This document shows positions 242-63,181 of a stretch of DNA of 64,000 bases, in pieces. The notes under the pieces are model-generated. The model did no database searches, was not told where the DNA came from, and saw only the letters and a program-made list of their open reading frames with translations. Numbering within the stretch: the stretch's first letter is position 1; each line of letters starts with the position of its first letter. The stretch comes from Tachypleus tridentatus (lineage: Eukaryota > Arthropoda > Merostomata > Xiphosura > Limulidae), in assembly GCF_004210375.1 (NCBI RefSeq), contig NC_134834.1, forward strand, positions 146,229,009 to 146,293,008. Reading direction: 5' to 3'. The position numbers and the translations under genes are program-made.

Positions 242-372
242 CCTGATATCTAGCAAGATATCAGTGACATCCAGGTTCTCAGGATCCTTTGTTTGAATAA
301 ATGTTTCTGCACTGACCACTGCGATGTTTCTAGAGGTCGCTATTCGCTGCAGCTCAATCAGTCCGTTTAGTC
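242..372 (-). CDS. Gene B exon 4: ATD, last exon inside the window
   Basis: 131 bp. Reads LNGLIELQRIATSRNIAVVS and ends DVTDILLDIR before donor GTAAGT. Acceptor ATTATTAG. Exon 5 must lie left of the window. Confidence 0.88.
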
Positions 373-17769: not shown

Positions 17770-18057
17770 TTTGTTTGTTTGTTTGTTTTTTTTTGAATTT
17801 CGCACAAAGCTACACGAGGGCTATCTGTGCTAGCCGTCCCTAATTTAGCAGTGTAAGACTAGAGGGAAGGCAGCTAGTCATCACCACCCACGGCCAACTC
17901 TTGGGCTACTCTTTTACCAACGAATAGTGGGATTGACCGTCACATTATAACGCCCCCACGGCTGAAAGGGCGAGCATGTTTGGCGCAACAGGGATGCAAA
18001 CCCGCGACCCTCGGATTACGAGTAGCACGCCTTAACACGCTTGATCATGCCGGGCCC
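17770..18057 (-). mobile_element. SINE-1 copy, full length
   Basis: Reverse copy from a (TTTG)n tail to ATGCCGGGCCC; the head has TTAACACGC, the GCGCGTTAAGG subfamily. Flanked by imperfect repeats GCACACAAG and GCACATAAG. Confidence 0.9.
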
Positions 18058-18622
18058 GCACATAAGGGCAACTTTTCATGTCATTAATCATGAATTCCCA
18101 TAACTTCTGATCCAGGGACGGGTTATTCCGACTGCTATATTAAATAATTTGTTGGTTTTTATTTCATCAGGGGTGAAATTGAAAAGAGGATATTTGACTA
18201 TATAGAGGCCTAATACATCATTATATTTGGGCGTACTCTCTGCTGGACTGCACTTTTACCTATTCAAGGCTTAACAGTAGAGATTCTCTTTTTCAATTTC
18301 ACTTCTGGTGGAAAAGAAGACAAATTTTTAACATACATGTACAATCATTAAACAGTTGTTCCACTGTATAATATTAAATAATGAATTCCATGAAATGTCA
18401 TAACATTATTCACATAATTGAATTAGTTTATTCTATGGTGAAATAAACGGCTTCAAAAACCCATAAATATGATAAGAACAATTATTGTTACAAAGTTTAT
18501 CTGTAAATCTATTGTTTATTGTCATTATGTAATAATGTAACTTATCCAGAAGTGATGGCTGCCCATTTTCTGACATGAAATTTACAGATATTTAGAATTC
18601 AGAATAGGTAAAGCAACAGTTG

Positions 18623-24959: not shown

Positions 24960-25082
24960 TTAATACCTAATTCCTTTTATCTTAAAATCATCACTATACA
25001 ATGTTAATCCGGCTTCTTTTTTAACATTTTGCAGTGCCATCTGTTTTCTTTTTGTTCCTTTCGATGTGCACTGACACGGATC
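24960..25082 (-). CDS. Gene A exon 16: C-terminal tail and stop
   Basis: 123 bp with the stop codon TAA. Reads DPCQCTSKGTKRKQMALQNV and ends DDFKIKGIRY. It continues in frame from exon 15 after acceptor TTTTCAG. The 57-residue cytoplasmic tail is short and basic; no PDZ-type ending is obvious. Confidence 0.85.
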   Translation of the reverse strand, partial: DPCQCTSKGTKRKQMALQNVKKEAGLTLYSDDFKIKGIRY

Positions 25083-28000
25083 CTGAAAATAGAAAAACAT
25101 ACACAAATATATACAATAAATATACCGTACAACAGAAAAATGACTCCCCGAGTTCACTATAGTATCAATCACATTTGAGAAAAATAAATTAGATATCCTG
25201 TGAAATTAAGAAAATAAACATACATTGAGACGGTTTGTTCGCTCTGAATTTTTGCACAAAGCTACACGAGCCTAATTTAGAAGTGTCATCATCATCCACC
25301 GCCATTTTTTGCGCGATTATTTTACCATCGAATAGTGAGATTGACCGTCACATAATGACGCACCCACGATTGAAGGGTGTTTGGTGGGATAGGGGTTGGA
25401 ACCCTCGACCCTTAGATTACGAGTTGAGTGCCGTAACCACCTGGCCATGGCGAGCCTTAGATTAAGGTGGCTTATATAAATTAAATATATATATCAGTCG
25501 CTAGGTTAAATTATTAATAGAAAAACAACAAATTAATGTGTACGCTTTTATACATCGTTACAAAAGTCGATATATTTATCCTCTAAAATAATAAATAAAT
25601 AAAGTTTTTAATATTTAATATATCTAATTAAATTACGAAACGTCTTCAGGAACTTTTTACTTGAAATTCGATAGGCTTATTTGGATTTTTGTTTTCTTTC
25701 ACACTGAAGGACTTCAAACGACTAAGTCTTTGTTAATTCGTTATCATTTCTGTCATGCAAATTTTAGTTTAATCTATCAATTCAAGTTTCCAAAGCAGCT
25801 CGTACAATTTTAAAGACTTATTTCGCTTCTTGTTATCTAACTTCCTGTGGCAATTAACGCTTGTAAAAAATTTTATTGAAATACTGCGAAAGTTAACGTT
25901 CTACCTAACGTGTAGACCTACTTGTTAGGACTATTTGTCCGCAACGTGCCGGTTATGTGACCAAAACCCGTCACCGAAAAACATTCTTCTGTTCAGCCGT
26001 TAGGAGTTTGTAACGTGACGACAAATCTCACTGTTTCTTGGTGAAGAGATGGATGTTGGTGGTGTTTACTAATTACATTAACACTTATCTATCACTTCAA
26101 AATTAAAGATGGCTGGTGCAGGTAGTTCTAAAGTTGTTTTGCGCAAAAGTAAAAGAAAAGAAAAAGAAACGAGTAAAAGCCTAACTTGCACCTAACCGTC
26201 CATGATCCAAAACACAGACCGAATCCTGATGAAGATGAAGGGAACTCGATAGAACTCTCAGACAGGTTCCTACATAACTCGTTTCAATATTATAAAAATA
26301 TATTAATAAAAACGAATTGATTAGCAAACTACACGACGAAATAAATCCTATGTACTTCTACACTCTAAACATCACATATATATAATTTTCGGAACAAAAA
26401 GCGCTGGGCTAACTGGACTGGTTCGGCATGGTCAGGTGGTTAGGACGTTTGATTCGTAATATGAGGGTGGCGCGTTGGAATCCCCGTCACACCAAACATG
26501 CTCACCCTTTCAGCCGTGGAGGCGTTATTTAGTGAGGGTCAATCCCAGTATTCGTTGGTAAAAGAGTAGCCCAAGAGTTGGTGGTGGGTGGTGATGACTA
26601 GTTGCCTTTCCTCTAGTCTTACACTGCGAAATTAGGGATGGCTAGCACAGATAGCCCTCGTGTATCTTTACGCAAAATTCAAAAACAAAAAGAAGAAACA
26701 AACAAGCGAACTCAATTCTAGACGTAAGCGTAGCTCTGTTTTAAAAGGATTTCGTGTTTAAAAAATGGAATTGTGTGTGCACACGCGCATATTACTGCTA
26801 AGCGGAACTGTATTGTGAACACGGACTAACAGTGCGATCTTGCATAAGAAAAGCTAGTAAGAATATACACATTCATGCTATCGCATGAGTTGAACATGGC
26901 ACGAAAAGTGTTTGGGAATTAAAACTGTGGATAGTGAACAAACTAAAGATACTATGAGAAACGTAGCAAGAGTTATTAACTAAGGTTCAATCACAGTGTA
27001 AACAAAATAACAATTCGTCTTATTATTCAAAATTCGAGAAAAGTAATGAACTTTTTCCATAATTTGGAATAAAATGAGAAAAGGACAATCGAAAGTTGTG
27101 TTTAACAACGAAGAATAAAAATGTCACAAAATAATTTGAAGTTGGAAGTGGGAATTAGTCTGTAAGAGTTACTTTTACACAGAAAAAACTTGGATCAAGG
27201 GACGAGCTAAAGCGTTGTGTGTGGTAGTTATACAACATATATAAAAGTTGGATCAGAGAACGAGCTAACATAGCGTTGTGTGTGGTAGTTATACAACACA
27301 GATGAAACGTGGATCAGGTGACGAGCTAACATAGCGTTACGTGTGGTAGTTATACAACATAGTGAAAACTTGGATCAGGTGACGAGCCAGTCTACATGAC
27401 TTTATATATCAATGTATGAGGTCAGGTTGTTAAAGTATTTTATCAAATTCAGCCCTTTATTTAAAGTTATTACAATAAATTAAGTATGTAATTGTATTGT
27501 GGTTCGTGAAGTAACTCTTATTTTAATTCTAAAAGTTTGAAAACACAGTGTTAAATTAACTGTTTTAATTTTAATGTTAAAACTTTGATTAATTACAATG
27601 TCTGTTATATGTACCTTACCTTAGACTTCTTTACTTTGCAAGTCATCGTTGTAGTCCAGCACATGTAGCGTAACCAATCAACAACCACCATTACTGCTGC
27701 TACGCCAATCCCAATAAGCAAACAATAAAACACGCCTATCATACTCCATATGTCCAACTGCCTGTTGTTTGTTGCCTTGCTTCCTTTACCTGGCAGATCA
27801 AACAAACAATGATAAACTGGCTACATTTACAAGAAGAAGCAATCTAAAGTTCGGCTGTTCGATATTTAAGTCATCAAATGAAATAAGGTGAAAGACAGAT
27901 TTAATTTTAGTTTTGTGTGCCAATAATTTTAAAGGAATCATTGCATAATCATATTTTTATGATGTAATAGAAGCTTTCAAAGCCTGTGTTATATTTTCTC

Positions 28001-31000
28001 CCTGAAATTCACGAATTTCAGTGTTTCATTTTAACCCGGACAACATATTACAACAAAGAACTATCAGGTATTAAGTTACCTGAGCTATTATGTGTTAAAT
28101 CATTTGATCTATTAATAAGGGTTAGGTAGCCTAATCCATGAGGTGTTATTTTATCTAAGCAATAACTTGTTAGGCTATCTGGGTTATAATATGTGGAGTG
28201 GTGTGAATTACCAAGCGTTACGTTATCTGGTCTACCAAGTGTTACACTACATGAAATCACGTTATCTTCACTATCAAGTGTTAAGTCACGTGAGCTATAC
28301 GGTGTTATATTATCTCATCCATCAGGTGTCACGTTATCCAAACTATTATTTATCTTACTTATCTGATACTAACGTTTGTTGGTTTACCAGAATGATCACT
28401 TTTACTTTGCTTCAACAAATAAGGTTTAGTTAATACCAAATCAAACAACACTCATTACTCAACTTACTGGTACGTTCTAGATGACGTTGGGGAGTCACCC
28501 ACCCCTTCACGTACCATCAAACTAAGTACCGTTAGAAATAACAAATAAAGAGAATTATTTTAGAAGAGTTCATGACTTCGTGGAAAAACAACCTCTCACC
28601 ACTTTGCAAAAACAACAAAAATCCTGGGTTCACCAGTGTAACCTGAAGGACAGTTTTACCTGAGTGTTTTCTTTATCTGTAACTTATCCTGTTATCTTAC
28701 CTGGACTGCTACATATCCCAGCAAACCATCTACGATACAAAGTTTCAAAAAATCCTTCCTCCCTTAGGCTTAGTATTCCTAAACTGAAATGTTTCTCATA
28801 GGGTGAATTTTTTTGTAGGCCAAGACCATAGTTTTGCTGCGTGAAAAAAAAGAAATACAACAACCAAACAACACTTTAAAAAATACCAATATATTTAATT
28901 ATCTTTAGTACTGAAACATATTTTATTAAACCTTTGTAAATGTGAATTTCGAAGGAAGATTTTCTTTGATTTCAAATAATCTTATAAACGCTTAGAGATA
29001 CGAAGCTAGGACAAATTTGATGACGAAATCACAGTTTAAGTAAGTTAGATTTCCGAAAATATGATTACAAACTTATCTAAATGGTGAGAACGTGTCCCAG
29101 CTGTGCCCTTACCTTTCAACAGGTTTAATGAAACATTTCCTCGATGAACCCCTCACGAGATGTTCTCAATCGCTTGTCAAGCTAATGTGATTGTGCAGAT
29201 GAGCAAAGAGATAATAAAGCAAATGATACTTTGGATACAAAGCTACACATACTCATACTAGCCGCCCTTATGTTTGAACTGATAGTCTAGCGATAAAAAA
29301 CATTGTCAAAGCATCCACTGTCACTTAGGTTACTCTTGTATACAATGGGATATGATCGTCATCACTATAACGTACCCAAACTTCAAAGTTCGTATATTAA
29401 CCCCTGGGTCATACTCGACCCTACGCCACTGCTACTATTATCATGTTTAGATAATTGTTTTGTGGAGTCCAAAATCCAAATCACCGAATATGTCGAAAGC
29501 ATTTACAGTGGCTGAAAATCTTATATGTTTCTATTCTAGCAGAAAATTAGCGCAAAGGATAAAATGCGAAAAAACAAATCACATATTTCTTTGATAAAGT
29601 AAAGATGATAAGTGTTAAAACATTGTTGATTGTTTGAAATAGCTAGGATTTTCTCAGGAGAGTAATGTCTCTTGAAGAGACGACCGAAGACAATCTGTAG
29701 CCGAAGTATTATCTGGTTTCAGAAGAACTGTTATCTCACGTATAAACGCCCACATGCCAAGTGGCACGTTAGATATGGTTTCGATTTTGTTTCGAATTTC
29801 GCACAAAGCTATAGAGATCTGTCTACGTTAGCCTTCCCTACTTAAATAGTGAAAGCCTAGTCATCACGGCCCGGCATGGCCAGGTGGTTGAGGCACTCGA
29901 CTTGCAATCCGACGATTGCGGGTTCGAATACCCGTCACACCAAACATGCTCGCTCTTTCAGCCGTGGGGGCGTTATAAAGTGAGGGTCAATCCCACTATT
30001 CATTGGTAAAAGAGTAGCCCAAGAGTTGGTGGTGGGTGGTGATGACTAGTTGCCTTCTCTCTAGTCTTGCACTACAAAATTAGGGACGGCTAGCGCAGAT
30101 AGCCCTCATATAGTTTTGCACGAAAATTATTCAAAACATACCAAACCAAACTAGTAATCACCAAATCACCATCCACCGCCAACTCTTAAGCTATACTTTT
30201 GCCGATTAATAGTTGGATTGACCGTCACATTATAACGCTCCCACGGCTGCAAGGACGAACATGTTTGATGTGACGGGAATTTGAACTCAGGACCCTCAAA
30301 TTACGAGTCATGCACCCTAACCACTTGTTCGTGCTGGGTAAATATAACACTAGAAACCGGGTTTCGATACCCATGTTGTAGTTTTATGCTTAACAAGAAA
30401 CAAGGAAGCAAAACTCATTATTATAAAGGTATGATTACTTTTGTTGGGATCTGGAGAGGGGGGAAGAAATGAGTGCGTTGTGTAATGTGTTTGACAATAT
30501 TGGCAAGATAGTACTGAAAATTGAACTTTGTATCGTGTACGATGTTTCACAATATTGGCAAGATAGTGCTGAAACTTAAACGTTGTATTGTTTACTAAGT
30601 TTGGTAATATTGGCAAGATAGTAACGAAAGCTAAACGTTGCATTCTGTTGGACAATATTAGCAAGATAGTACTGAAAATTGAACTTTGTATCGTGTACGA
30701 TGTTTCACAATATTGGCAAGATAGTGCTGAAACTTAAACGTTGTATTGTTTACTAAGTTTGGTAATATTGGCAAGATAGTAACGAAAGCTAAACGTTGCA
30801 TTCTGTTGGACAATATTAGCAAGATAGTACTGAAAATTGAACTTTGTATCGTGTACGATGTTTCACAATATTGGCAAGATAGTGCTGAAACTTAAACGTT
30901 GTATTGTTTACTAAGTTTGGTAATATTGGCAAGATAATAACGAAAGCTAAACGTTGCATTCTGTTGGACAATATTAGCAAGATAGTACCGAATGTTGAAC

Positions 31001-34000: not shown

Positions 34001-37000
34001 ATGTCTTCCAACGTTTCTGGCATGATAAGGATATCCCACCGGAGACATTTTCTACACAATACAGTGGAGGAGGCTCCAACATGATCTGTGGTGCTTTCTC
34101 CTTCCATGAAACAATGGAGCTTCAGATTATACAGGGCGTCAAACAGCAGCAGGCTAAATTGGCATGTTGGAGAGAGCACCTTTATTGACTAAGGGCCCTC
34201 ACTTGTGTGGAAATGACTGGATCTTTCAGCAGGACCACGCTGCAATCCACAAATACTCGCAGAGCAAAGGATTTTTTCATGGCGAATATTGTGATTCTTT
34301 TGGACTATACAGCGTGTTCGCTCGAACTGAACCCCATTGAAAATGTTTGGGGGTGGATAGCAATGGAAGTCCATAGAAATGGACGTCAATTCCAAACAGT
34401 GCATGATCTTCTTTAAGCCATCTTCACCACTTGGTATAACACTCCAGCCAGCCTTCTGCAAACGCTTATATCGACTATGCGAAAACGAATGTTTGAAGTT
34501 ATTCGCAATGATTGTCGTGCAACTCACTACTGAGACCTCTTGTTGGGCATTTCCTACCCTGTTTAGGACATTTTTTTGGTATGGTCTTAAACTTTTGACC
34601 AGCTAGTATTTAAGCTAATTTCATAATGTTCACATTTTCCCTATTAAATGCTAAAAAAGTTTTTTATTTTTATTTTTCCTTTTCTTATTTTCGTCTTTCG
34701 AAGCTCTACTCAAATAAGTGGTTAAGTTTAACAACGCGAAATGCATATTTTTTCTTTATATTTATTGGCCTTAAGATTTTGGCCAGCAGTGTATATATAA
34801 GAAAGAATTTCATGTATTCTGAAGATTGTTGCTTCAAACTGTTTTGAACACAGGGCTTTGGTATGATAGAAACCTTATGAATCATTGAACTTTGATTGGC
34901 AACAGTTCATGCTACTGGGTGTAGTTCATATGGTATGGTTTGGGTCCTCTTATCCTATTGGCGAGCCAAAAGCATATTCAGAGTATGTAGAATCTATATA
35001 TAGTGGCCAACCCAGTTCTCCATTTAATGTGATTTTTGCATCCAAATAATGATGTGTTTCAGGACGTCAATTTCACTATCCATTAAGTCCAAGAGTGATT
35101 GCATGAACATGAGATATGGTCTGACTGCCACAGTCTCCAGATGAAAATACAAGTAAGAACTTTGGAATATGCTAAAACTCTGTATTGGGTATTGCCTGCA
35201 ACGTACCATTCTCTTTAATACAACTATTCTATGTTCTCCATGGAGAAATGATAACAAGTACTGTGTTTTATCATTTGTGGAATTAATTCTCTGTAGCGTT
35301 GCTCGCGTCATTCAGATCAGGTGTGTTCCAACCAAATACTGGATGACCTTTGTAATATTTTGACAAGTGATTGCATAAGATTATTGTTAACTAGTATCAA
35401 AGAATATAATAAGATTACAGAATAACTAAAACCCCTGTTATTAAATTCATGCAAAAGACTTATTTTTCGGGTATTTCTTGACTGAGGAAGTAGTACAATG
35501 GGTGTCAAGTATGGGTCTGCCATGCAGAAAAGAGAGAGTGCTGATGAAGAATTATAGTATAGACTAGTGTAATGTATTTAGATGTGATTTATATATTTAG
35601 TGATTACAAAGAAAAATAATTAAGACTTACTGCTCCAAACAACCGTCCAGTAGTTTCAATATTACAAGGTTCCTGTTCTGTGGCGAATGTCAAGATGGGA
35701 GAATCACCAATAAATGCAAACCGTCCTGAAGTTCCTGAAATGTTGGGAATCAATATACTTAGAGCTTCTTCTCTCTAATCCTCTCCATAAAATACAGAGA
35801 AAAGTAAGTTAACTTAAGTTTTAGATAATATTTCTGGTGGTAATACTTGTCGGTACATATACTGTTATTTCAAAACTTTCACGTGGCAACTTCTGCCTTT
35901 TACATTTTGCTCTAATTTACAAGTACAGTATTAACTTGCAATTAATATTGCAATTTGTTTTTCTTCTTTCCTCTGCGACCTGCGAGTGACCTGATAAACT
36001 AAAGATAGTACTGTGAAAACGAACATAAATTGAAGAGGAATGGATAAGCCAAAATTTGTGGGTTGGTAAAAGCTTTAAATCAGCAACCACCAGCTTCTTG
36101 TACATTAATATTTAAGCTGCTACTCTTTCTCAGCTTCACTAACTGTGGTGAAATCGTCACGTTTAACAGCGATATTGCTTCCTGCCAAGATGTTCTTGTT
36201 GCATTCCAAGGCTTTCTTCATGTGTGTTCTTTTATACCATAAACAACTATTTGGTGATGGAATCTAAATAATCTTTTTTTTTCATTGCCTCTCAGTGGCA
36301 CAGCGGTATTTCTGATGAATTTCGACGTTAGAAACTGGGTTTTCATACCCGTGTTGGGCAGAGCACAGATAGACCGCTGTGTTGCTAATTGCTTTATTTG
36401 AAACAAACAAAGAAACCTTCTTTCAGTCAGAATACGTGAGTTTATAAGTGCCAAATGACTGTTTGCCCTCAGGTTGTTTGTTTGTATTGAATTTTGTAAC
36501 GAATAGTAAGATTGACAGTAACATTATAACGCCCCCACGGCTGGGAGGGCGAGCATGTTTGGCGCGACGGGGATGCGAACCCTCGACCCTTAGATTACGA
36601 GTCGCACGCCTTAACACGCTTGGCCATGCCGGGCCCAACAAGTTAGGCAAAAGCTACTGATAATATAAATCAGTTGGAGGATGGCATGTAACAGAATATT
36701 TTTTATGCTAAATTATGCGATGCTATCAGAAAATCATCTGTTTTAGAAGGGCATGTAATAAGTACTTTCACGACAAAAAAAGTTGTGTTCAGTTCGATGA
36801 TTTAGACATTTGAATAATAATGCAAAATATGCAGATCCGTAGGACCATGCAGAAAGATATGTGCAATAAGTCGTAGCTAAAACGTGGTACGAAAGCTGCA
36901 GCACCTAATAATAGTTAATAATTCACAAACATAAGGGCTAGTGTTAAAAGCTGTTTTCGTAACAGGTGGTGTTATCGTCGTAACCAAGAAGGATTTCCGT

Positions 37001-40000
37001 TACGAAAAGCGACGCAAGTCATGTGTAAAGAAGATGCTTCCGTGGCATTTCCGTTCAACTTTTTCATACCTTAACTGGTTGAATAATGAAACTGTAACGA
37101 CGTGGTGAGGCTCCAAAACCATTTTAATATAACGTATTCTTTCTAAATACATATATAGAATATGCATTAGAAAGTTCTTTGCAAAATCCATTGTAAGTCC
37201 CAGTCGTCACCTTAGAGTCATAACGTATATTGCGTTCATTTCATTTCTACTTCAGGAATTACAAGAACTTTTAATGGTAATATCCTTTCAACAAGATGGC
37301 TGCAGACAATGAAAGGCAGTAGAGGTGGAGAAGTTGTGAGTGTAAGCACTCAGCTCCATACCTTTTTTTCCATGGTAGCTGACTAGTTTAACATCAGCGT
37401 TCAGATTTTGTCTGGTAAAAGGGTTATCCATAACGCATTTGAGAGTTATTATTACAGACAATATCCGTTATCACAGGTCACAACTGGGATTAATAATGGA
37501 TTTAGCAAAACACTTCTTATTGGTTATTTCATATTAAGTTCGTTATTACTTCAAAGTGCTGATTTTAATCGTCTATTAACAATTAATATAATTAGCAATA
37601 TTGGCACTATTTATTTCATTGTGTATGTATACACATGTATATATACATGTATGTATACATAGTAGAATTTGTGAAAACATTTCCTATGTGAATGAAGTGA
37701 TTGTTGATATTATATATTGTTGAAGCTATATGAATGAAGTGATTGTTGATATTATATATTGTTGAAGCTATATGAATGAAGTGATTGTTGATATTATCAA
37801 TAAATAATACGAGACTATTCAGAAGATAAAATACTACCAAATCTGAGTAGAATAAAATCTCGCTATTTACACCTAGATGGGTACTCAAACTATGTGCTCT
37901 ACATGACACACTTAGATATACGTGTAGCTGCCTTCTAGAAAATAACTTCCATTTAGGTTCAGCTTTCCTTTTCGAAGAAGGATATTATGAGCAGGTGGTC
38001 TTGTCGCTGAGCAACAAGCGTTATTTTTAGTAAGCAAATTATATTCTGCCACTACTTTTTTACAGTTGCTAGTCAGCAGTTTATATTAATTCTATCAATG
38101 ATGTTTAACTACAGTTTTGTTGCCACTTGTATCTCCTGTTTAGACCAACAAGTACTTTATTTAACAACAAAGAAATTTTATTATTGTTTACTTACCACGG
38201 GGAACATTAAATGAGCCTCGGACTTTTCTAATACCTTCGTGAAAAGAAGCAACTAAACTATTCATCTTCTTCATCTTCTGAAAGGCTTCTCGATAAAGCG
38301 CCATCTCGTGCTTTTCAAAGAAATCAACAACACTGCTGTTTTCTGCGCAGCCATACTCCATTTTGGAGTCACGCACGAGTTCCTCGAGCGACGACACTTC
38401 TGTAGATGTACATAAACATATAATTGTTAGAAAGCGTTGCGAACGCGTGCAACTCAAGAACAAAATTTATGTTCTATTTCCTCCTAAAGCGACAGAGAAA
38501 AATGTTTTACCTTTATCTGACCTCTCCACTGTCATCACGGAAGCTAGCTTGGCTGTGTAAGCTGACACAAGTACTGTTGTAGATATCCACCAAACAGCAA
38601 GGGTAATACGGGTGGGAAACAGAAGTCTTCCAGGATCAATACTCTGTTGATAGCAATAGTAAATCAACCAACGGTTAAATATTGACATGCAATTTTATTT
38701 TAATATTTGTTTTGGAAAAAAAAACTTATGACTCATAGAATTAACACATATTCCAACAAGATTACCGAATCTCAAATACCTCAAGTTTTCATTTTATTTT
38801 TAACTCCGTTCCTTTAAAGAAAAATTAAATAAATATATTCAAAGATAGACAAGGTGAATACTTGTGTTATATTCTGTTAATCTCAGCTACTATTAATAAG
38901 AAATAGGTTCTTATACCAACCGCTCACTTCTGTACAAAAGCCACACGCACACTTAAAGCGATAGTGCTAGAACGTGTTGTTTTAGTAGCTTCTAAATGAC
39001 GTAGTACAGACTGTTTGACCAACCTGTTTTTTTAGTAAACTTTAATTATGTAAAACGAAGGAATAATTTGTTTCAGTAAGTGTTTTCGAATGTTCCTTCC
39101 CTCTGACTGCTTCCCTATGTTATATTCGTAACGTTATTCTAACATATTTCCAGTTACTCATCACATTAACTTAATTATTATAACCAAACATACTTTTACC
39201 TGATTCACTAACGAAGAAAACCCCAGCCACAGGGCATGAAATATTCCCATTGGAGCAACGTTTGGCTCTTGACGTATAGCGCAATGTTTGCGATGGTCTT
39301 TCAACAGTCGTCGACGTTGAACGCCCTCTGGTGTACAGTTGCTACATATTACAAGAACCAGAGATGTAACACACAACGCCACTAATATTACTGCCCATAG
39401 CAAGGGTTCAAAGGGTGAAAGAAATGCGAAAACATCTTTCTGGACTGCAGAATTGTAACGAGGTATCAGAATGGTTAGTCCAAGGTCGAAAAAAGGTTTT
39501 GTGAACGAAATAACTTGTTGACGTTCAAAGTTTATTGTAAAGGCTCCAAGTCCAAGATCTGCTTTCTACAAAGAAAACCAAAGAGTAGTTCAAAACATCA
39601 AAATGTTAAAATGTCTTTAACTTTTTTGGATATCTCATGCTTATATATTCATCGATTATTGTTTCTTGTTTACACATTTGTTTGTGATAGGAAACGACTT
39701 TTAGACAAACCCTTCATTCACTCAACACTTTAACTGTGACATATAGAAACTTAGACAAACCATTCATTCACTTAACACCCTGATTGTGACATATAGAAAC
39801 TTAGACAATCCATTCATTCACTTAACACCCTGATTGTGACATATAGAAACTTAGACAAACAATTCATTCACTTAACACCCTGATTGTGACATATAGAAAC
39901 TTAGACAATCCATTCATTCACTTAACATCCTGATTGTGACATACAGAAACTTAGACAAACCATTCATTCACTTAACACCCTGATTGTGACATATAGAAAC

Positions 40001-43000
40001 TTAGACAATTCATTCATTCACTTAACACCCTGATTGTGACATATAGAAACTTAGACAAACCATTCATTCACTTAACACCCTGATTGTGACATATAGAAAC
40101 TTAGACAAACCCTTCATTCACTCATAATCTTAATTGTGACATACAGAAACGTAGAAAACCCTTCGACATTACTTCATTCACACGCCAAATCCCCAAGTGG
40201 CATAGCAGAATGTCTACGGACTTACACTGTTAAAAATCAAGGTTTCAATAACTACAAACAAATATGCATCATTCATTCGGCATTTTAGTTGTGATGGACA
40301 GAAGCTCAGACAAACTATTAAATGCTGTTTTATTCACTCAACATTTGACTTGTAAAATCAGGAGATATTTCATCGTCAGTAACGTTTACTTGAAGTATTC
40401 TTACTGTTATACAATTAATTATCTGTCTTATTTCGTCCTTCTATTATATAATGCCTTTATTGTTTTCTACTGAACAGTTATTTCTCGTGTTTCGTCCTTC
40501 TATTAAATAATGCATTTATTGTTTAGTAATGAACAAATATCAGTTTTGTTTTGTCCTTACGTTATGTTTTTGTCGTGGTTTTGTAATGAACAGTTGTCAG
40601 TCTTGTTTCGCCCTTCTATGAAATTATGTCTATTGTTTTTTAATGAACAGTCATCTCTCTTGTTTCGTCCTTCTATTAAATAATGTCTTTATTGTTTTCT
40701 AATGAACAATTATCTTGTGTTTCATCCTTCTATTAAATTACATCTTTATTGTTTTGTAATGAACAATCATCTCTCATGTTTCGTCCTTCTATTAAATTAT
40801 GTCTTTATTGTTTTCTAAACAACAGTTCTTAATATTATAAAAATTATATTGTTTGATCCATATACTTTTAGATTAAAATCTCTTCCTCTCGAATGGTGTT
40901 CATAACAATAAAAAACTATAAAATAAAATTTAACTGCGAGAACCATACTGGACGTTTTTTGCGAAAATAAGATTGTTTGTTTTTTGGAATTTCGCACAAA
41001 GCTACTCGAGGGCTATCTGTGCTAGCCGTCCCTAATTTAGCAGTGTAAGACTAGAGGAAAGGCAGCTAGTCATCACCACCCACCGCCAACTCTTGGGCTA
41101 CTCTTTACCAACGAATAGTGGGATTGACCGTCACATTATAACGCCCCCACGGCTGGGAGGGCGAGCATGTTTGGCGCGACTCGGGCGCGAACCCGCGACC
41201 CTCAGACTATGAAGCGCACACCTTAACGCGCTAGGCCATGCCGGGCCCGCGAAAATAAGAAATATGTGGGGGCTGACATTATATATATATATATATATAT
41301 ACACACTATGGTGCGTGCTATTTTTACCATATAACAAATACTCAGTGAAAGCTTATTGTTTAAGTCTCTTAGTGTCTCCAACTGGTGATTTTCAGCCTCA
41401 ATGTTTAGGCCTTATTGACCAAAATACGGTGTTTGATCCCTACAGAAGGCACAACACAGCTAGTTCTTATGCAACCTTATGCTTTATAAAATGTCTCAAC
41501 TTTGAGTCCCCTCCTCCTTCTAGTGACTCAAAGGTGAGTTTGTGGGCTTATACCAATAAAATTCGATTTCGATTCCTACGGTGAGGATTGCTAAATGTGC
41601 AACTTTGCGCTTAAAAACGGAAAACAAAAGCATCACTTGTTTTCCATCTATCGAAAAATCATACGCGGACCTCGCTGAGGTTAACTTACGTCTTCCATCA
41701 GTTCTTTGACGATCCCGTCCCACGATCCAGTCTGGGGATCTTGACGACCGTAAGTGGCCCTTAGCGACACAGTGAACCGAAAGCTTAACATTTCTTGTAA
41801 TCTCAACAGTAGGTCTATACAATACCCAGTGTAGCGAAGGCTGTTCGGATCATCAGGTTTGTAATCCGGGTTGTCCACGACGAAAGGAGCATCCTGAGAA
41901 CAATATAGGTCCATAATTTTATCTTTCTTACGCTTATAATTCATTACCTTAATAGCGTACTATAATTAAAGTTTAGGAATAGGCTTAGCACACAGTAATA
42001 AAACAAAGACAGAAGAACGATAGACTGAAAAAATAAAAATAACTTTATACAAACAGATTAAAGTACAGAAAGTAAATATATACAGAAGGATAGTATCAAA
42101 GATTATATAAAGGAAAATGAACCGCGAGAAAGAAAATCGAACACCGAACACAGAAGACGCACCTTTACTGTCACTACACGGAGAGACATGTTAGACAAAT
42201 CGTAGATACTGTCAACGGGTGGATTTAGGGTATTTCCTGGAAAGACAGCTTTAGAAGAAAGTTCTAACTCTGAAGACATGTTTCCCAATTTCCACGTTCC
42301 AATCTGAAACGATATACGTTGAAACAATACATTTCTTTCACTAATTTTGTTCGTAGACATCATAAAATAATATGTCTGAATGTTCAACTCTGTTTGTTGG
42401 TGTTAAAGAATATTTATGAATTGTTGATTTTGGTTAATTTTATTCGTGGGTATTATTAACATGTCTGATTGACTGACTTTGGCTATTTCTGTTTGTGGGC
42501 ATTATAAAAGAACTTACCCGAATGGTTAATTCTTTTCATGGGTATCAAAGAACATGTCTGAATGGTTTAATTTGAGAAATTCTGTTTGGGAGTACTATTA
42601 AAGAACGTACCTGAATGGTTGATTTGGCTAACTCTGTTAGAATTATTAGAGAATATATTTGAATAATTGTTTTTAGCTAATTCTATTAGTACTGTAAATA
42701 ACATGTCTGAAGTGTTGATTCAAGATGGACGTTTATTGGTCAGCTATTACAAAGGAAGCTATAACAGCGAACTTCCATGTTGCGAAAGTTTGAGAAAAAG
42801 TATTTGGTCTTCTCCGTTACTGTAGTTAATACATTAGTCTTCGTTGTTACTTAGAAAAACATAAAAAATAAACCAGCAACTCCTGTAACGTCTTCACTGA
42901 CCGAAGATTGATAGCGAGAATGAATGTTCTAAGCAAAAAGTACTCCTTCGAGAATCAGGTTTTTAATATTCTACTGAATTCTTTGCTGCTGTCTTACCTT

Positions 43001-46000
43001 GATAAATCTTTGAGGGATCAGGTTTTTGATATCATGCTGAATTCTGTTGCTGCTGTCTTACCTTATTAAATCCTTCGGAGGAGGGGTAGGCTTTGAATAC
43101 CGTACTGAATTCTGTTGCCACTTTCATACATTGATGAATCTTTGAGGACTCAGGTTCTTAATATCACACTGAATTTTGTTACTGTTGTCTTATTTTGATG
43201 AATCCTTCTAAGGGGGGTCAGGTTTTGAATACCATACTGAATTCTGTTGCCACTGTCCTACCTTGATGAATCCTTGAGAGATGAGGTTCTCAATATCATA
43301 CTGAATCGTAGTATGGAATCCGTATTTCGTAAAAGTCAGATGTCCTAAAGTTCCTTGAACTCCTTTCAATTCCTTGATGTACTGAAATAGCAGCTCCCCC
43401 TGTGGCCAAATTTGTAATAACTCGCTGGCACAGAAATTCGGAGGGAAAGATGGTGGCTTCAACAAATTGCCCTCTTGTAAATACATATGAAGTCCTTGAG
43501 CAACGGCAAGAACAGCATCGTATACACGTGCAGCTGTTATCTGTGGTGTAAAAGATACACAAGGTATTAGAAGAGTTATGGAGTTATCAAATATCAACAA
43601 ATTTACATTATCAGGTTCATGTTGAAAAAATTTATCTTTGATAGAAAAACAAAATTTCAGCCAGAGGTGTCGCAATGTAATTAAAACATTCAGAGAAGAA
43701 ACATTTTCTAGCTTTAAACCTCTTCTTCGATTACAAAGACTATAGCTTCTCCTCCCCTCACAACTTTCCTGATAAATGCAGTTTTGGTTTTGTTATTTTC
43801 TGCCATGAATTGAATACTTTAATATTTCTACCTGTTTTCACGTCAAGACCTTATGTCGTTGATAAGTGTAAGAATAGTTAAGTCGACCGTTTTTCCTTCC
43901 AGATAATATTCGTCAGAATGATACTATACTAAATTAAAGTCAGTTATTACAATTTTGTTCTTATCAATTATAAGACATACTGGTACAGTTTTTACATATA
44001 AAGATTATGTGTTGCGTGACTCAGATAATCGATTTGTTTTCACTGTTCACTACAGGTGTAAATTGCATGGAATATTTACGCATAGCTGTATCCCTAATTT
44101 TCAGCTTATAGACAAGAAGCAAGCTAACTCGTCAATAGCACTAACACTCATTCTTATAATACTGACATAGCCACCAATTGTAGAGAGCGTTTTCTCGGCA
44201 ACAGACATGAACTCTAAACCTTCATTTTTAAAGAGCAAGGTAACCACTAGGCCATGTCTGGTTCCACTCAATGAAAAACTGACGAATAAAATTTTCTGAG
44301 ACCACTTACTGTACTTGTAAAATAGTTAAGAAATGCTTTGGTTTGTTTTGAATTTCGCGCAAAGCTACACGAGGGCTATTTGCGCTAGCCGTCCCTAATT
44401 TAGCAGTGTAAGATTAGAAGGAAGGGAGCTAGTCATCACCACCCACCGCCAACTCTTGGGCTACTCTTTTACCAACAAAACACACGATAATACCCACACA
44501 TGTTGCGCGATACAAAATCTGGCTTTTCAGCTGTATAAACCATTTGCTCCACGGTTTTTGTGAGTTGTATCGAAAGAGATGGGCGAGGGACTGAACGAAG
44601 TTACTTACGACTGTAATGTGATAAGTGCAGTATGTATTTGAAGTTGGACTCTTACAATATTTTGTACAATTGAAATACGGTCTGGCCAACCTTTTTTTTT
44701 TTTTTTGGAGCTTTTGAAATAGATTTACGAGCTCTTTATCAGAGTATTTTTGTTGTTGTTACAATAACTAAAATACTATAAACTGTGACACTTCTATTAG
44801 CCCACTAAATCACCCGAACTTGAATTCATTGACTCGTGTGCTAGATGTTAAAATATTCGAAAATTATGTCATGGAACTAAATGCATCCTTTGATATGTAA
44901 ATCACGAGTTTGATTGGTGAACAGTTCTGTGAAAGCTTGGACACTTTCCGTTTTCTCTGTTCTCTTAATCTACTGCGTCAAGTGTTTTAAGTCAAAAGAA
45001 ATAAATTTCCATTGAAATAAAGCGTGTGTGTGTATGTTTTCTTATAACAAAGCCAAATCGGGTTAGCTGCTGAAATAAAGCGACCAGTAAGAAACGTTGT
45101 TTCATTCACTGAAATATATTAGCCAACGAAATACACTAAACTTACCAAAGGTTCGTCTGAGGCACTTTTTAACGATTTTGTGAGCCTCTCCCTTAGGAAA
45201 AGGAACTGGTCATTTTCGTCAGTTGAAGGCAACGTTCCCAGCAGGCCTTGCATATAATTGGGAATATGGCCGTATGTATCGGTTACTGCCCGTCCACCCT
45301 GTAAGGTTCGAATACTTACAATAGGTATAACTCATGATGTGACTTACAACAAAATGTATTTGTTTTTCTCACTTTACATTTCCAATTGTTGAGAGTATCT
45401 AAAAGGTGTGCTTCAGCTTTAGATTAAAGTGAGTTCGTGTTTAGATAAATATATTTCAAGATCAACTTCTTTACTTTGTAACAATGGCGATGCTCAGTTA
45501 GACTTGGTTTAATGATGGAAGAGGAAAGACTAGAAACACATTGTACGTGTAGCAGTATCGTTTTGACGATTATCTGTCTTTTATTTTTCTCCAGAAAGGT
45601 AACTTTCTTGTGTAAAACATTATATTTAAAGCTGAATATACGCAATTGAAAGTTCAATAATTATAACGAACACTTATTGATCAGGCTACGGTTAAGATGC
45701 TCGACTCGCACTGTAATGTGTGGGTTGTGGGATTGAGGCTTTTTATCGAACATTCTCGTTCTTTCAGTAGTACATATATTATAATGTGATAATCACTCAC
45801 AATATTCGTTGGTAAAAGCGTAGCTTAAGAGTTGCCGGTCTGCTCATTATTTAGACTTCCTCTTGTCTTTAACTTCAAAATTATGGGGGCTTGGGTTCGA
45901 ATCCTCGTCATACCAAACATGCTCGCCCTTTCAGCCATGGAGGCGTTATAAAGTTACGGTCAATCCCACTATTCGTTGGTAAAAGATTAGCCCAAGATTT

Positions 46001-49000
46001 GGCGATGGGTGGTGATGACTAGTTGCCTTCCCTCTAGTCTTACACTGCAAAATTAGGAACGGCTAGCGCAAATTGCCCTCGTGTAGCTTTGCGCGAAATT
46101 CAAAAAAACAAACAAACAAAAATAGGGACTGCTAGTTCACACATAGCCTTCGAGTAGCTTTTTGTGAAATTTTACAAAACAATTATTCTGCGAAAACACT
46201 ACCATAACACACGAGGCTCTCGTGTTTGATTCCCTTTCATTACGGGTTGGGTCGAATTCACTCAGCTCATAACCACGAAGTTATCCATGATTTTTGATGA
46301 TATAAGCATATGTTTACAAAATTCTGCAGGTTATTAGAAAATATTACAAGGCCTTAGTACAAAATATATCAGGTTTTTAAATTAAATATTAAAATATTTT
46401 TATTAAAGATTCGTAATTTTTTTCTTTCAGAATATTGACTAGGCAACATAAAGAGTAATTTTGATTTTAAGATTAAAAATACTTTTATGCATTAATATGT
46501 GTTTTCTTATACCAAAGCCAATACGGGCTATTTACTGTGTCCACAGAGGGAATCGAATTTCCTGATTTTAATCCGAAGGTTTACCACTATCCGAGCGGGA
46601 GACTTTATGCATGAGAAAAATTTTTAAATTTCACATGTTTTGCTTGTCGTATCCGTCAACTTCTGATGTCTTTACTTGAAAGAAATATTGTTAAAATCTA
46701 CCACAAGAGTCATTTACAACTTACTTAAACTTTAAAATTGCCAATAAAAAGTCACCTGAATGAAAAATATACACGTAAAGCAGTGACAACCTACACAGTT
46801 TAAAATTGTCTTGTATAATCTTTTAAGCGCAACAATCTTACCCCTGGTAATAGTTTGTCCATAAATTTATATCCAACCCATGATATACTTGTTCCATAAG
46901 TATATAAAAAAAAAATTAAAGACAAAAGGTCTTTCCATAAAAGGCTCGGCATGGCCACGTGGTTAAGGCACTCGACTCGTAATCCGAGGATCGCGGGTTC
47001 GAATCCCCGTCGCACCAAACATGCTCGCCCTTTCAGCCATGGGGGCGTTATAATGTGACAGTCAATCCCATTATTTCTTGGTAAAAGAGTAGCCCAAGAG
47101 TTGGCGGTGGGTGATGATGACTAGTTGCCTTCCCTCTAGTCTTACACTGCTAGATTAGGGACCGCTAGCGCAGATAGCCCTCGTGTAGCTTTGCGCGAAA
47201 TTCAAACCAAACCTTTCCATAAAACTGTGACAAAGAAAACCAACAATTTGTAATGTACAGATTGTAATTGAATAAAAAGTATTTATTTCATTAATAATGA
47301 AAATATATTTTTATGTACCAATAAAAACAAATGCTGGCAGTAACTGTGTAATGTCAATAAAAGAAAATAATTTACGTAATTATCAAATAAGGGGAGTTTA
47401 CAACCTCATTTCATAAAAAATTTGTAATTAACTCAGACATTAAACTGAACAGTATCTTTATAAAATGGAAAGTAAGCTGTCTGATACTTTAGACGCATCC
47501 CTCATCACTTTGTATTCAATTAATCACTTTTGTTTCTCGTGCTAACAATAATACATTTTCAAACGTTAACTTACGTTATTGGTGATTCCTTCCGTGACTA
47601 GCCACGCCCATCCCTTTCTGAGCATGCCTAGTTCGTCTGCTTGACGTAAAACTGGCCTGGCATATTGGGAAAGACAGTGTAGGACTATGACTCTAACGTG
47701 TTGATTCTTGAAAATAATACACATATATAATAAGATTCCTGAAACAAAATAGTTTTTAATTTGAAAACACAACACCAAAAAGAGTATCTAAGAGTTTAGC
47801 TACGAAACCGATGCATCATTATGGAAGTATAAATATACCTAACATCCATTAAATCTGATAGGATTCATAAATGGTGTGTTACATTCTAAGAGATATTCCA
47901 TTTGGATTTATTTTCAATTATTAAGTATTTTACAAGCTTTCAAATACTTTAGAAATATTCCGTTGGAAATAATATGTGCGTCTTAATAGGAGATAAGAGG
48001 GAATCCTCAATAGCTGCGGCTCTGGTAATTCTTTTAGGCAGGATTAGAGTAAATTAGTGTGTAATACATTTGCTTTCCATTTAATTAGCTATGCGTTTGC
48101 GCACCAGCAATATCAAGCGTGAGGGTATGCGTATACCCGATTTGATTTTATTACTCATCCGGGTCTCTACCAGCCTTCCCTCAAGTTTAAATTATTTTAA
48201 GCAGTATTATATTAAAGTATTCTATGATATCTTTGACGTGGTCAAATACATCAATCGAAAGGGTTTGAACTTCTAGGTCGAAAACTGTAATTAAATCTCT
48301 AAGCGGTTAAAGAGATGACGAATGTATAGGATATATGTTTGTACTTGGTTAAAAAAAAACGAACTCAGAGTCGTTCTGTGAGCCGTTCAGCCCTCGGCTA
48401 AACATACGATCTAATCAAAATCAGTCATTAGCGTAAATTTTTCTACAAAACATTGGGCGTTAAAGATTACACATTAGCCACTAAGTATAATATACTAAGA
48501 ATTTTCAGTTTTTGAAAAGATGTTTGTTTGCTTGTAATTATGCACAATGTTACACTATAGGCTATCTGTGCTCTGCCCACCACGTGTATCGAAACCCGGT
48601 TTCTAGCGGTATAAGTTCGAAGACGCCGCTGCGCCAATGGAGGAGGGGGGCGTTTTGCAAAGACCTTGAACTTTATAACATTAGCTCCACCCTTCACGAG
48701 ATAATCGAGTAAAAACGTGAACAAATGATTGAAAGTAAATATTTGTTGATTTAGCAACATTAACTATCAAACCTGACTTAAGATTCATCCATATATATAA
48801 TATTAAACAAAATACCTGCGTGGTATCCGCCTCCCCCAAAAAAAACAAAAATAGTCGGAAATTAATATTTCCGTTGACAAGCTCACACAGAAACAAATAT
48901 AAATGAAGCAAACCCGTTGAAAATTGGATTGGCCCCCAGTAGTAAAGAAAAGACAACAAATAAACCATGTATTTTATGTTTTTATGTTTATCTACGTGGC

Positions 49001-52000
49001 TATAATTTTTAGGGGCCCCCTACCTAATTTTGGAGGCCCTGGTGGTTCACATATTGTTATTGTCCTGTAGACTGGGTTGGGGTGAATATCTTATTATGTT
49101 AAACAAAGGGATAATAATATCATTGTAAAATATAATTTACAGTTTCATTATATGAATAATGAATCGGTACAATCAAAACGTTCTGTACAGGGCAATTCAT
49201 AATTCGCACAATGTTGTCTGAGTAGCGCTATAACTGGAGCGTGATATTCACATAAAAAAACTATCCATGACATATAAAGAATGTCATAGTTCACTGAGCT
49301 AATTTTGCTGTATGTCAGAAATGGACGTGACATTGATATAACATTTGGGCTTTTTGTTGTTGTTGTTGTTAGAAAACACTCTCAGAAGCACAATTCTAAG
49401 ACCAACAGTCATTCAGAGAGGATATGTAGAAATTGGAATTATCCTGTCCCCTGGTGGTCATTTAATGCATCACTTTCATATCGGTATATAACCTTCTATA
49501 TGCCCTAGAGTTGTTGTGATACTTCTACATTTCTGCGTGATTTATGAAGCTTTTTGTGTAACAATATTTTCAAATGTTCTCAATGCCCTGAAATGTCTAG
49601 GAAACCCGAGTGCTAACCCTATCATCAAAGATGAATGATTTCCAATTTTATTTCAGTGCGAGTTAATAAAAAGCATGCATATGTTTATACATCAAACCAA
49701 TTATTTGTAAAATAGAGTGGAATTTTAGTTCCGAATCGTTGTTATCTGTTTCGTACGTCAGTGGGTGGGGATTTATTTGTTAATCTAAACATGTAATACT
49801 GTTAAAGTTACACAAATTATAACTTCATTTTATGAACAGTGCAGGCTTATTACATATTAAAATTATGCGTAACAAATGTGTGTAACTTTTTACTGTTTTT
49901 TTTTTTACTTATCTACAATAAAAATACTAATTAGTTCATGAGGAAGTATAAGGACTTACACTATTAAATATCCGGGCTTGATCCCTGCGCTAGATAACCC
50001 ACTGTGTAGCTTTTTCGCTTAACAACAAACAACAACAACTTATGTATTTGAGAGAAAATGAAATCTGGAAGTAAAAAAGAAACGCGAAACTAACGAAAAA
50101 CATGTTCATTTTACAGAAGCATAGACGTTTCGGCGTGTAACTGATCCCATCATCAACGAAGCCAACAATGACCTAGCACTACCGATAAAAGAAATATTTG
50201 ACCTTGAACAATATTCCACTAGACTTAACAATGTACAGTCTTCCTCCAAGATATATATTTTGTATTATATGTAGTGCATACAGGAAGCATTTCGTCAATG
50301 CTTAATAAAAATAATAACGTTTACTCTACCCATTAAAACAAAAAAAAAGTTATTTCAGCCAACGTTTTGCCTTTGTGATTTCATTAGGGCTAGTAATACA
50401 AAAGCTGTTTCAGTTTTTGTATTACTCATCCCGATAAAGCCATAAGAATAAACCATTGGCTGAAATTAAAAAATATATTTTTTTTTTCTGGGAGACAAAG
50501 GATTTTTTTTCCTAATTTTTATTCCCAAAATATACATTGTTTGATATTAATTTGAACGTCTTACAAATTTTCATTAATTGAAGATGTTATTATAATGTCT
50601 ACGTTCTTTTATGATTTCCTTATCTCACGTTTCCCTCCTCGATTTCACTTGTTGTCGACTGTAATTACACACACACACGTATTATGGGTGAGTTTAGCGT
50701 TTTACGGCGCAAAGCAACTTGGCTATCTGCACACACACATTATCTTGAAATATTTACATGATCGACAGAAATTCCTTTACGCTGTCCCAGAAAATTATAT
50801 CCATTTTTTCCATCACGTACAGATTTTCCACAAAACATCACACATACGTTTACATAAGTAAATCGTTTTCATTGAAATCGGGTCGCTAAGTGATGTGTGT
50901 GTTTTTTTATAGAAAAGCCACATCGGGCTATCTGCTGAGTTCATCGAGGAGAATCTAACCCCTGATTTTAGCGTTGTAAATCAGTAGACTTTCCGCTGTA
51001 CTAGCGGAGGACTCGGAGTGAGAGTCTTATTGACTCTTCTAGAACCCAGATATAACAAACATAATAATAAAAATGTTAATTGTAGTAAACGAAATAATAA
51101 TTTGATGGAAGAGTTTTTTTCCCAATTTGTAAAAAAATCTTTACCTGATAGAAAACAATTATATTATTTTTGAAGACTGTGCAGCTGAATTATGGAAAAT
51201 TTGTTATTAAAACCAAAATAACTTTTATGAAGTTTAAATTCGTAAGCCTCTGTTATTCCTAACGGGTTGTGTTACGTAGTTTGGTTAGTTTTGAATTTCA
51301 CGCAAAGCTACACAAGGACTATCTGCGCTAGCCATCCCTAATTTAACAATATAAGACTAGAGGGAAGGCAGCTAATCATCACCACCCACCACCAACTCTT
51401 GGGCTACTCTTTTACCAACGAATAGTGGGGTTGACCGTCACATTATAACGCCCCCAAGGCTGAAAAGACGAGCAAGTTTGGTGCGACGGGGATTGGAACC
51501 CGCGACCCTCGGATTACGAGTCGAACACCTTAGCCCAACTGGCCGGTTGTGTTATTACAATATCTTTAGAATGAGTTGTTTATAATTAAAAGAAATTATA
51601 TTTTTTGTTTGTAAGTAGTGGATGGAATCTGTTGTATTTTGAAATGTTGGTTTTCTTTCTCTGTTTCTTTGTGTAAAATAAACAGGTTGTGTCATTCTTA
51701 CTTTTACTGCCAAATGGCACCAACTTTTACATTTTTATACCTTCTTCGTTTTACTTCCTAACAGCTGGTGTTAAACACATCCCTTTCATACCACTCCTAC
51801 AAGTCTGTAAACAAATATTTTACCTTAATAGCTTGTAAGTGATATCGGACATCTATCGATTCACTGTCGGTACTCGTTTGAAAGTTTTCAACACTCACTA
51901 CTGTCCAGTCGTTCCGGGTGGCGATTTGCTGCAATTCCAGTAATCCGTTCCGCCCTTAAAAGTGAGGTTCAATATTACATAAAAATTTATATTTGGTTAT

Positions 52001-62410: not shown

Positions 62411-62734
62411 GGAAAGCATGATGACGTCAACTGATCATGGTCTGTATCTTTCATAAGGGTTTCTATGAGGGACGCGCTGAATACATCACAATATCAAAAT
62501 AGCAACTGCGCGAGAATTTTGAAGTATATGGTTTAAGTAGGTTGTTACAATGGAGAGTGAAAACACTGTATGCATACCAAACCAGTTACATTTGTTTCTA
62601 GCTGTGCTCTTGAAACAGCTATACGCTGTTGGATTAACGATACCAAACCTGCATTTTACCAAACTCTCGTCGCGAAGCTCATAGAACGATGAATAAAATT
62701 AATCTTTACTTTAATTCATTAATTTTTGGTTTTC

Positions 62735-63150
62735 CACATCTTCACCACCATCAGTGTACATTGTTTGTCCACATCTTCACCACCGTCAGTGTACATTGTT
62801 TGTCCACATCTTCACCACCGTCAGTGTACATTGTTTGTCCACATCTTCACCACCGTCAGTGTACATTGTTTGTCCACATCTTCACCACCATCAGTGTACA
62901 TTGGTTGTCCACATCTTCACCACCATCAGTGTACATTGTTTGTCCACATCTTCACCACCATCAGTGTACATTGTTTGTCCACATCTTCACCACCATCAGT
63001 GTACATTGGTTGTCAACATCTTCACCACCATCAGTGTACATTGTTTGTCCACATCTTCACCACCATCAGTGTACATTGGTTGTCCACATCTTCACCACCA
63101 TCAGTGTACATTGGTTGTTCACATCTTCACCACCATCGGTACATTAGTTG
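62735..63150 (+). repeat. 35-bp minisatellite, about 12 units
   Basis: TGTCCACATCTTCACCACCA units spaced exactly 35 bp (62766, 62801 and on). Since 35 is not a multiple of 3 and the unit lacks stops, all three forward frames stay open; this is a by-product, not evidence for a gene. Confidence 0.93.
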
Positions 63151-63181
63151 TCAATCTGATATGGTTGGCTTATAACTTTCT

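Follow-up and report, generated by a model that had tools for sequence, protein, structure and literature searches.

We describe in the horseshoe crab Tachypleus tridentatus an iGluR gene, gene A, and two sister genes, B and C, in which the M3 gate motif SYTANLAAF has been altered in nearly the same way. The reading that we favor, and hold to be fairly probable as a whole, is that these genes constitute an intact iGluR clade outside the AMPA and kainate classes, that the gate was rewritten in this clade and then kept, and that the products function as slow ligand-gated channels without a leak. Few stretches of iGluRs are as conserved as SYTANLAAF, and the changes that it tolerates are known in large part from disease variants and engineered mutants. 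The three genes can be regarded as a natural experiment, i.e., a wild-type, duplicated and constrained clade with three changes, two of which match studied GluA2 substitutions, and they may help to distinguish gate positions that must stay (here 2, 3, 4, 6 and 7) from those that only tune kinetics.

Gene A is an intact receptor gene with an altered M3 gate

Gene A was analyzed in a window of 64,000 nucleotides (C10:146229009-146293008 of the 2.17-Gb genome), and coordinates without a prefix refer to this window. The genome contains strong Coagulin-family exons that jointly cover almost the entire profile, in agreement with its horseshoe-crab origin, as Coagulin (coagulogen) is not known from other animals. 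Exon 11 of the gene (38511..38643, minus strand) encodes the linker that follows the pore loop, M3 and the altered gate AYTAKLASV, and translation of 38643..38511 gives SIDPGRLLFPTRITLAVWWISTTVLVSAYTAKLASVMTVERSDK. The gate in this exon reads SAYTAKLASVMTVER, while GluK2 and GluA2 read SSYTANLAAFLTVER. Gapless alignment with GluK2 and GluA2 showed that positions 1, 5, 8 and 9 of the motif, or four of nine, are changed (Ser1 to Ala, Asn5 to Lys, Ala8 to Ser and Phe9 to Val), which bears out the count of altered positions given in the first-pass annotation of this DNA. Its identification of the eighth position as the Lurcher site agrees with the available text of PMC5430913. The motif was also correctly assigned to exon 11, which is bounded by an AG acceptor and a GTAAAA donor and whose phases fit those of exon 10 (ending at 39200) and exon 12 (starting at 38399) in frame. 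The ORF containing this exon matches the Pfam family Lig_chan (E=5.4e-9). A tblastn search with five M3 queries (E up to 0.5) found no exon with a canonical SYTANLAAF in the window, in 30 kb at gene B or in 40 kb at gene C; an alternative canonical M3 exon for gene A was rejected on this basis, and the earlier claim of an altered gate at this locus stands.

The gene model consists of 16 exons on the minus strand, with GT-AG introns and no internal stops. It predicts a protein of 923 aa, 883 from exons 1-15 and 40 from exon 16, compared with the 926 residues of the first-pass annotation. Pfam analysis of the spliced protein from exons 1-15 identified ANF_receptor (E=2.1e-59), Lig_chan-Glu_bd (E=1.9e-29) and Lig_chan (E=1.6e-26), in that order, and all three families were matched in each of the three members of the clade. 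Candidate exon 1 (61430..61505) provides a start codon and a putative signal peptide, MEITFLKVSVLLIWILCAQSAKVKIG, with a GTAAGT donor in frame; it was picked by hydrophobicity and by visual likeness to an ORF of gene B, homology support being absent. The amino-terminal domain is encoded by exon 2 (55765..55914; splice sites, and alignment to B and C), exon 3 (53889..54167), exons 4, 5 and 6 (51824..51954, 47575..47706 and 45146..45298, each supported by alignment with genes B and C) and exon 7 (43262..43540). ORFs of exons 2, 3 and 7 match ANF_receptor with E=5e-4 (alone below the curated cut-off), 4.7e-20 and 7.6e-7, respectively. The 3' end and donor of exon 7 lie inside a tandem array (42954-43306, minus strand; 64-68 bp unit, ~5 copies), and alternative donors may therefore exist.

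Exon 8 (42163..42303; alignment with genes B and C) forms the link to the ligand-binding domain, the S1 segment of which is encoded by exon 9 (41690..41893; ORF Lig_chan-Glu_bd E=5.9e-14). The end of S1, M1, the M1-M2 loop and the pore loop with its Q/R/N-site Asn are found in exon 10 (39200..39565), which was aligned and whose ORF matches Lig_chan-Glu_bd (E=9.2e-8) and Lig_chan (E=1e-5). Following exon 11, the ligand-binding S2 segment is encoded by exon 12 (38196..38399), with the Ser653 and Val655 equivalents, exon 13 (35631..35725), with Asp at the Glu705 equivalent, and exon 14 (28701..28836), which contains the S2 end and whose aligned part is 73.9% identical to C and 76.7% to B. Alignments and splice sites place M4 in exon 15 (27620..27789). 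Exon 16 (24963..25082) encodes the C-terminal tail of 40 aa and was placed by its in-frame CAG acceptor and the stop codon after GIRY, homology support again being absent. All of these exons are on the minus strand.

Genes B and C carry three of the four gate changes

Sister genes were sought by a whole-genome protein search combined with flanking sequence, and three genes of one kind, A, B and C, were found among the 120 of 201 candidates that were scored. Gene B is the tandem neighbor of gene A on the same strand. Its exons 2, 3 and 4 fall inside the window, in the stretch from 8158 to 242 (8006..8158, 2207..2485 and 242..372, minus strand, each placed by alignment with gene A) and the remainder lies to the left, with the M3 exon at C10:146211208-146211340, outside the window. 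Gene C is on another chromosome, with exons 2-15 at C2:68177099-68191938. Exons of both genes were searched for by demanding the intron phases of gene A, and in each gene 14 stop-free exons of equal or near-equal lengths match exons 2-15 of gene A.

The gate motif is AYTAKLAAV in both sister genes. When gene B was checked for the changes seen in gene A, three of the four were present (Ala1, Lys5 and Val9) and Ser8 was absent; the same three are common to A, B and C, and among them only A has Ser8. Protein identity is 48% for A versus B and for A versus C, and 69% for B versus C. The comparison of B with C yielded a dN of 0.203, a dS of 2.39, which is near saturation, and a dN/dS of 0.085; dS of A versus B or C is saturated, so that dN/dS is unobtainable for gene A. 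Among the seven codons of A-Y-T-A-K-L-A, five vary synonymously among the three genes with the residues unchanged, and this synonymous drift under retained residues suggests that positions 1, 5 and 9 are a retained feature of the clade. Judged by sequence, a near-identical gate change across an intact family looks like a kept design feature and not like damage.

We also considered that gene A might be decaying or misassembled, in which case its motif changes would be noise. Assembly or allelic damage does occur here: a locus that we call B' (L046-L048, C10:128.325-128.355 Mb) is 98.9% identical to gene B over 29 kb, but its exon 5 is frameshifted and part of its exon 11 is scrambled. Furthermore, the Ser8 codon of gene A, TCC, is a single base away from Ala. 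However, all 14 exons common to A, B and C are intact, and of the four changes three are found in each of these genes, which lie on two chromosomes. At positions 1, 5 and 9, these sequence comparisons appear to have largely refuted decay or artefact, and we consider such an explanation of gene A highly improbable. B', which is on the same chromosome as gene B, is likely to be a haplotype copy or a recent duplicate, and was not treated as an independent member of the clade.

A second, truncated M3-like fragment, VLISAYTAKLAVLFTAER, was observed in the intron between exons 6 and 7 of gene C (L043:9232-9285; C2:68184232-68184285) and is perhaps a duplicated piece of exon 11.

Variation of the gate motif across the genome

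A channel-family profile was used to survey the genome, and the M3 motif was read at 75 rows among the 150 places listed of 249 candidates, some of which are M1 exons only; 40 further places and a few more M3 places are outside the counts. Class labels and duplicate marks were assigned to the rows from flanking sequence and location. Eleven of the 75 rows are marked as duplicates and were kept in the counts, and all 75 motifs were re-found in their loci. The rows comprise 51 of iGluR type (43 without duplicates) and 24 IRs (21 without duplicates).

Every AMPA/kainate-type row (25/25) reads SYTANLAAF; L085, which lies on a small contig, looks degraded and reads FYTANMAAF, was excluded from these 25. 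Of the 51 iGluR-type rows read, 50 have Ala at position 8, gene A being the sole exception. At position 5 the same rows have Asn (45) or Lys (6; A, B, B', C, L023 and L025), and at position 9 Phe (42), Leu (5) or Val (4). Position 1 is Leu or Ile in the nine NMDA2-type rows. Ser8 was found in 11 of the 24 IR rows read, or 9/21 after dropping three marked duplicates. The motif had been described beforehand as near-invariant, and this proved accurate for the AMPA/kainate types but not for the IRs, with their frequent Ser8, or for position 1 of the NMDA2-type rows. The canonical SYTANLAAF is not found in gene A (AYTAKLASV) or in B and C (AYTAKLAAV), and it is best considered typical of the family instead of required, as NMDA2-type rows vary.

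Given the strong variability of IR motifs in this genome and their frequent Ser8, gene A could be taken for a chemosensory IR with IR-typical divergence. Divergent IRs lack the amino-terminal domain and have degenerate ligand contacts, and the IR25a/IR8a types keep the domain. Gene A encodes a full amino-terminal domain (ANF_receptor E=2.1e-59) and keeps the contact Arg and Thr and the acidic residue, and its best solved relative is GluK2, over profile positions 11-850 of 854. IR membership was rejected on the amino-terminal domain and the conserved ligand contacts, and we give this explanation very little credence.

Two of the five NMDA-like genes that have a long intron-free stretch read SYTAKYAAL (L023, C2:132704634) and SYTAKVAAL (L025, C4:11544086), and the other three read SYTANIAAL. 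By sequence, the change of Asn5 to Lys in these two genes apparently occurred independently of the A/B/C clade. In addition, two kainate-grouping genes, L015 (C5:3127396) and L017 (C8:20441325), have His at the Q/R site (TLMHQG).

Placement of the clade among iGluR classes

A tree of 14 sequences was made from the segment extending from the S1 end to M3, with one GluD2 sequence and with Phi, Epsilon and IR rows absent. In this tree A, B and C form a clade, with SH-aLRT 99.6 and UFBoot 95 on the separating branch. Gene A is 33% identical to GluK2 or GluA2 over 156 aligned pore-segment sites. AU tests, which compared eight hand-chosen topologies, rejected membership in the kainate class, both as two nested versions (p-AU 0.0001) and as sister (p-AU 0.0039), and rejected a position sister to AMPA receptors (p-AU 0.0039). 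These sequence-based tests place the clade outside the AMPA and kainate classes, each of which was rejected at p-AU <=0.004. Three placements were not rejected: a position sister to AMPA and kainate together gave a p-AU of 0.15 in the 14-sequence tree, grouping with Delta a p-AU of 0.47 with the single GluD2 sequence, and grouping with NMDA, which is the identical unrooted tree to 'outside AKD', a p-AU of 0.64.

Comparison with GluK2, the closest solved relative by score (366 bits), showed that A, B and C share with it the order ATD-LBD-M1-pore loop-M3-S2-M4, the Arg/Thr ligand contacts and the pore-lining Thr/Ala/Thr gate residues. Their gate motif, AYTAKLA[AS]V, differs from the SYTANLAAF of GluK2, and their Q/R/N site holds Asn where GluK2 has Gln. 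Further differences are a longer M1-M2 loop, Asp for Glu705, Ser653 and a non-polar residue at 655, and a kainate placement was rejected by the tree. GluN3A also has Val9 and Asp at the 705 equivalent, and its pocket, Ser-Ser-Ala, resembles the Ser-Ser-Val of gene A. However, the GluN3A motif, TYTANLAAV, retains Asn5, unlike the Lys5 of A, B and C, and M3 of the three genes shares its WW with AMPA and kainate receptors, GluN1 and GluN3A having WA.

The Q/R/N site (position 586) is Asn, not Gln, with Asp at +4, in all three genes. In the available part of PMC6307864, none of the Phi subunits described has Gln at position 586 and SYTANLAAF is less conserved in some of them; A, B and C would fit this description in both respects. 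The Epsilon subfamily is characterized by an insertion in the M1-M2 loop and by Gln586 in most non-ctenophore members, whereas A, B and C combine a loop longer than that of GluK2 with Asn586. The sequence features of the clade would fit the Phi/Epsilon literature by description. PMC6307864 also reports that Delta is absent from the arthropods studied and that Phi and Epsilon are absent from protostomes. A single Phi receptor from an arthropod, Calanus glacialis, is described in PMC12226733, together with annelid Epsilon receptors.

We tentatively raise the idea, with more doubt than confidence, that the three genes represent an arthropod remnant of a Phi, Delta or Epsilon-like class, in which one wild-type gate unites changes that each favor opening in GluA2 (S615A and, reportedly, N619K) and, together with the Q/R/N-site Asn, would make the channel slow, glycine-driven and weakly desensitising. 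If this is true, a class whose loss from arthropods was reported to be complete or nearly so survives here. The clade may also be of use in classifying some of the orphan iGluRs of Limulus (GRIK1, GluR4 and GluR2; Table 1 of PMC5225553), which are likewise from a horseshoe crab, have no clear class and were compared by description; some Limulus genes are very far from all others according to the available portion of that paper.

Genes A, B and C are predicted to be glycine-type receptors

A residue rule for glycine-type receptors, as given in the available text of PMC6307864, consists of Ser653 with a non-polar residue at 655, Arg485 and an acidic residue at 705, and the same source predicts that similar numbers of Phi members bind glycine and glutamate. 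At positions 653-655, gene A has Ser-Ser-Val, gene B Ser-Val-Val and gene C Ser-Leu-Ile, and Arg485 and Asp at the 705 equivalent are present in all three. Hence each gene carries the residues of this rule (653/655 being S/V, S/V and S/I, respectively), and all three are predicted from sequence to be glycine-type receptors. Gene A keeps both the Arg and the Thr ligand contacts. The prediction is weaker for B and C, in which the S654 equivalent is occupied by Val and Leu, respectively.

Proposed effect of the altered gate on channel function

The gate constriction of GluA2 is formed by Thr617, Ala621, Thr625 and Met629 (PMC9068512, in the part available). Motif positions 3, 7 and 11 match the first three of these, and none of them has changed in A, B or C; the Met629 equivalent is lost, gene A having Ser and the two sister genes Leu. 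On an ideal helix, the changed positions 1, 5, 8 and 9 are at angles of 100-160 degrees from position 7. By hand calculation, four random changes would spare both pore-lining positions of the motif (2/9) ~28% of the time, so that the face pattern by itself is weak evidence.

The N619K change in GluA2, at position 5, reportedly promotes opening and lowers Ca2+ permeability. Solved structures of GluA2 carrying SYTAKLAAF were identified by exact match over 102 residues (PDB 8fps, 8fq2 and 8fq3). At position 1, the GluA2 S615A mutation was shown to raise the non-desensitised fraction 27-fold and to slow deactivation 5.7-fold, effects that were likened to NMDA receptors, and the S615 side chain was described as pointing away from the pore (PMC5430913, available text). 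S615A and the position-5 Lys mutant represent two of the three clade-wide substitutions; they are engineered single changes in a mammalian receptor, whereas A, B and C carry a natural, conserved combination. These two mutants support, by inference, the earlier suggestion that the channel gates unusually. No report of Ala1, Lys5 and Val9 tested together, or of Ser at position 8 being tested, was found in the literature consulted, and a YTAKLA-type motif was absent from a full-text search of it, which is weak evidence of novelty because figures are not covered by such a search.

On the precedent of GluA2 S615A, with its slow kinetics and weak desensitisation, we predict that A, B and C are slow ligand-gated channels and not leaks. 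We propose that the gate became A-Y-T-A-K-L-A-x-V, in the simplest case by a single event, and was then retained in all three genes, the products of which would be ligand-gated cation channels, probably with glycine or a related small amino acid as the ligand. Located on the face of M3 that points away from the pore, the substitutions would stabilise the open state and slow both closing and desensitisation, Thr3, Ala7 and Thr11 would still seal the closed pore and prevent a Lurcher-like leak, and Ser8 would be a private further change of gene A that is probably tolerated.

With 33% pore-segment identity, GluA2 is a distant stand-in for gene A in this proposal. Changes in the AMPA receptor motif can also abolish current, as shown for F644L (position 9) of GluA2 on co-expression (PMC6626132, in the part available), so that the opposite outcome could apply to A, B and C. 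The main rival to a slow ligand-gated channel is a non-conducting or modulatory subunit, the latter also suggested in the first-pass annotation, the M3 of which no longer opens and which would act as a glycine-binding scaffold or a dominant partner. Wild-type GluD receptors are usually regarded as acting in this way. The distance of the clade from AMPA and kainate receptors and its possible link with GluD2 (p-AU 0.47) are in keeping with such a role, as are the current loss in F644L and the non-functional Lurcher-site mutant of GluA2 (PMC6626132). Nevertheless, all three genes retain the pore loop (Asn, with Asp at +4), Thr3/Ala7/Thr11 and M4, and the alpha-carboxyl Arg, the acidic 705 equivalent and the domains are all present. 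Moreover, a dead pore should drift, yet the motif is held while synonymous sites vary, and we consider a non-conducting subunit rather unlikely.

Lys5, which in GluA2 is said to promote opening, might instead point to a constitutively open, Lurcher-like channel, and the first-pass annotation raised a possible leak through Ser8. Previous studies, as far as their text is available, showed that Thr or Asp at position 8 of GluD2, and also changes at positions 3 and 10, lead to constitutive current (PMC10840383) and that GluA1 A636T is leaky, but that the corresponding A643T mutant of GluA2 is non-functional without a leak (PMC6626132). GluD1-N651S (position 5) is marked '-' in a table where leaky variants read 'present' (PMC10840383). 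The residue at position 8 here is Ser, not Thr or Asp, within the clade it is confined to gene A, and positions 3, 7 and 11 are kept. Many of the IR rows read in this genome carry Ser8 (11/24), and for this reason we rejected a leak from Ser8 alone as the main reading, and a constitutively open channel appears quite improbable.

Other elements of the window

An interspersed repeat of ~270 bp is abundant (e.g., 46942-47213, 60034-60306 and 17776-18064), and a reading frame that apparently forms part of it contains SYTAKLGTAS, which resembles the gate motif by coincidence. This repeat was rejected by reasoning as the source of the motif, since exon 11 aligns with B and C over 41 codons. An ORF at 33504-33917 (plus strand) matches a Tc3-type transposase helix-turn-helix (E=1.5e-4, just over the cut-off) and HTH_38 (E=9e-6, below its cut-off); apart from the Tc3-type match, Pfam analysis of nine other ORFs of the window gave sub-cut-off matches or nothing. 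Finally, two further large tandem arrays were observed, one at 30480-31973 with periods of 158 and 316 bp, and one at 62729-63152 with a 35-bp unit in ~12 copies, which lies within plus-strand ORFs of 150-169 aa.
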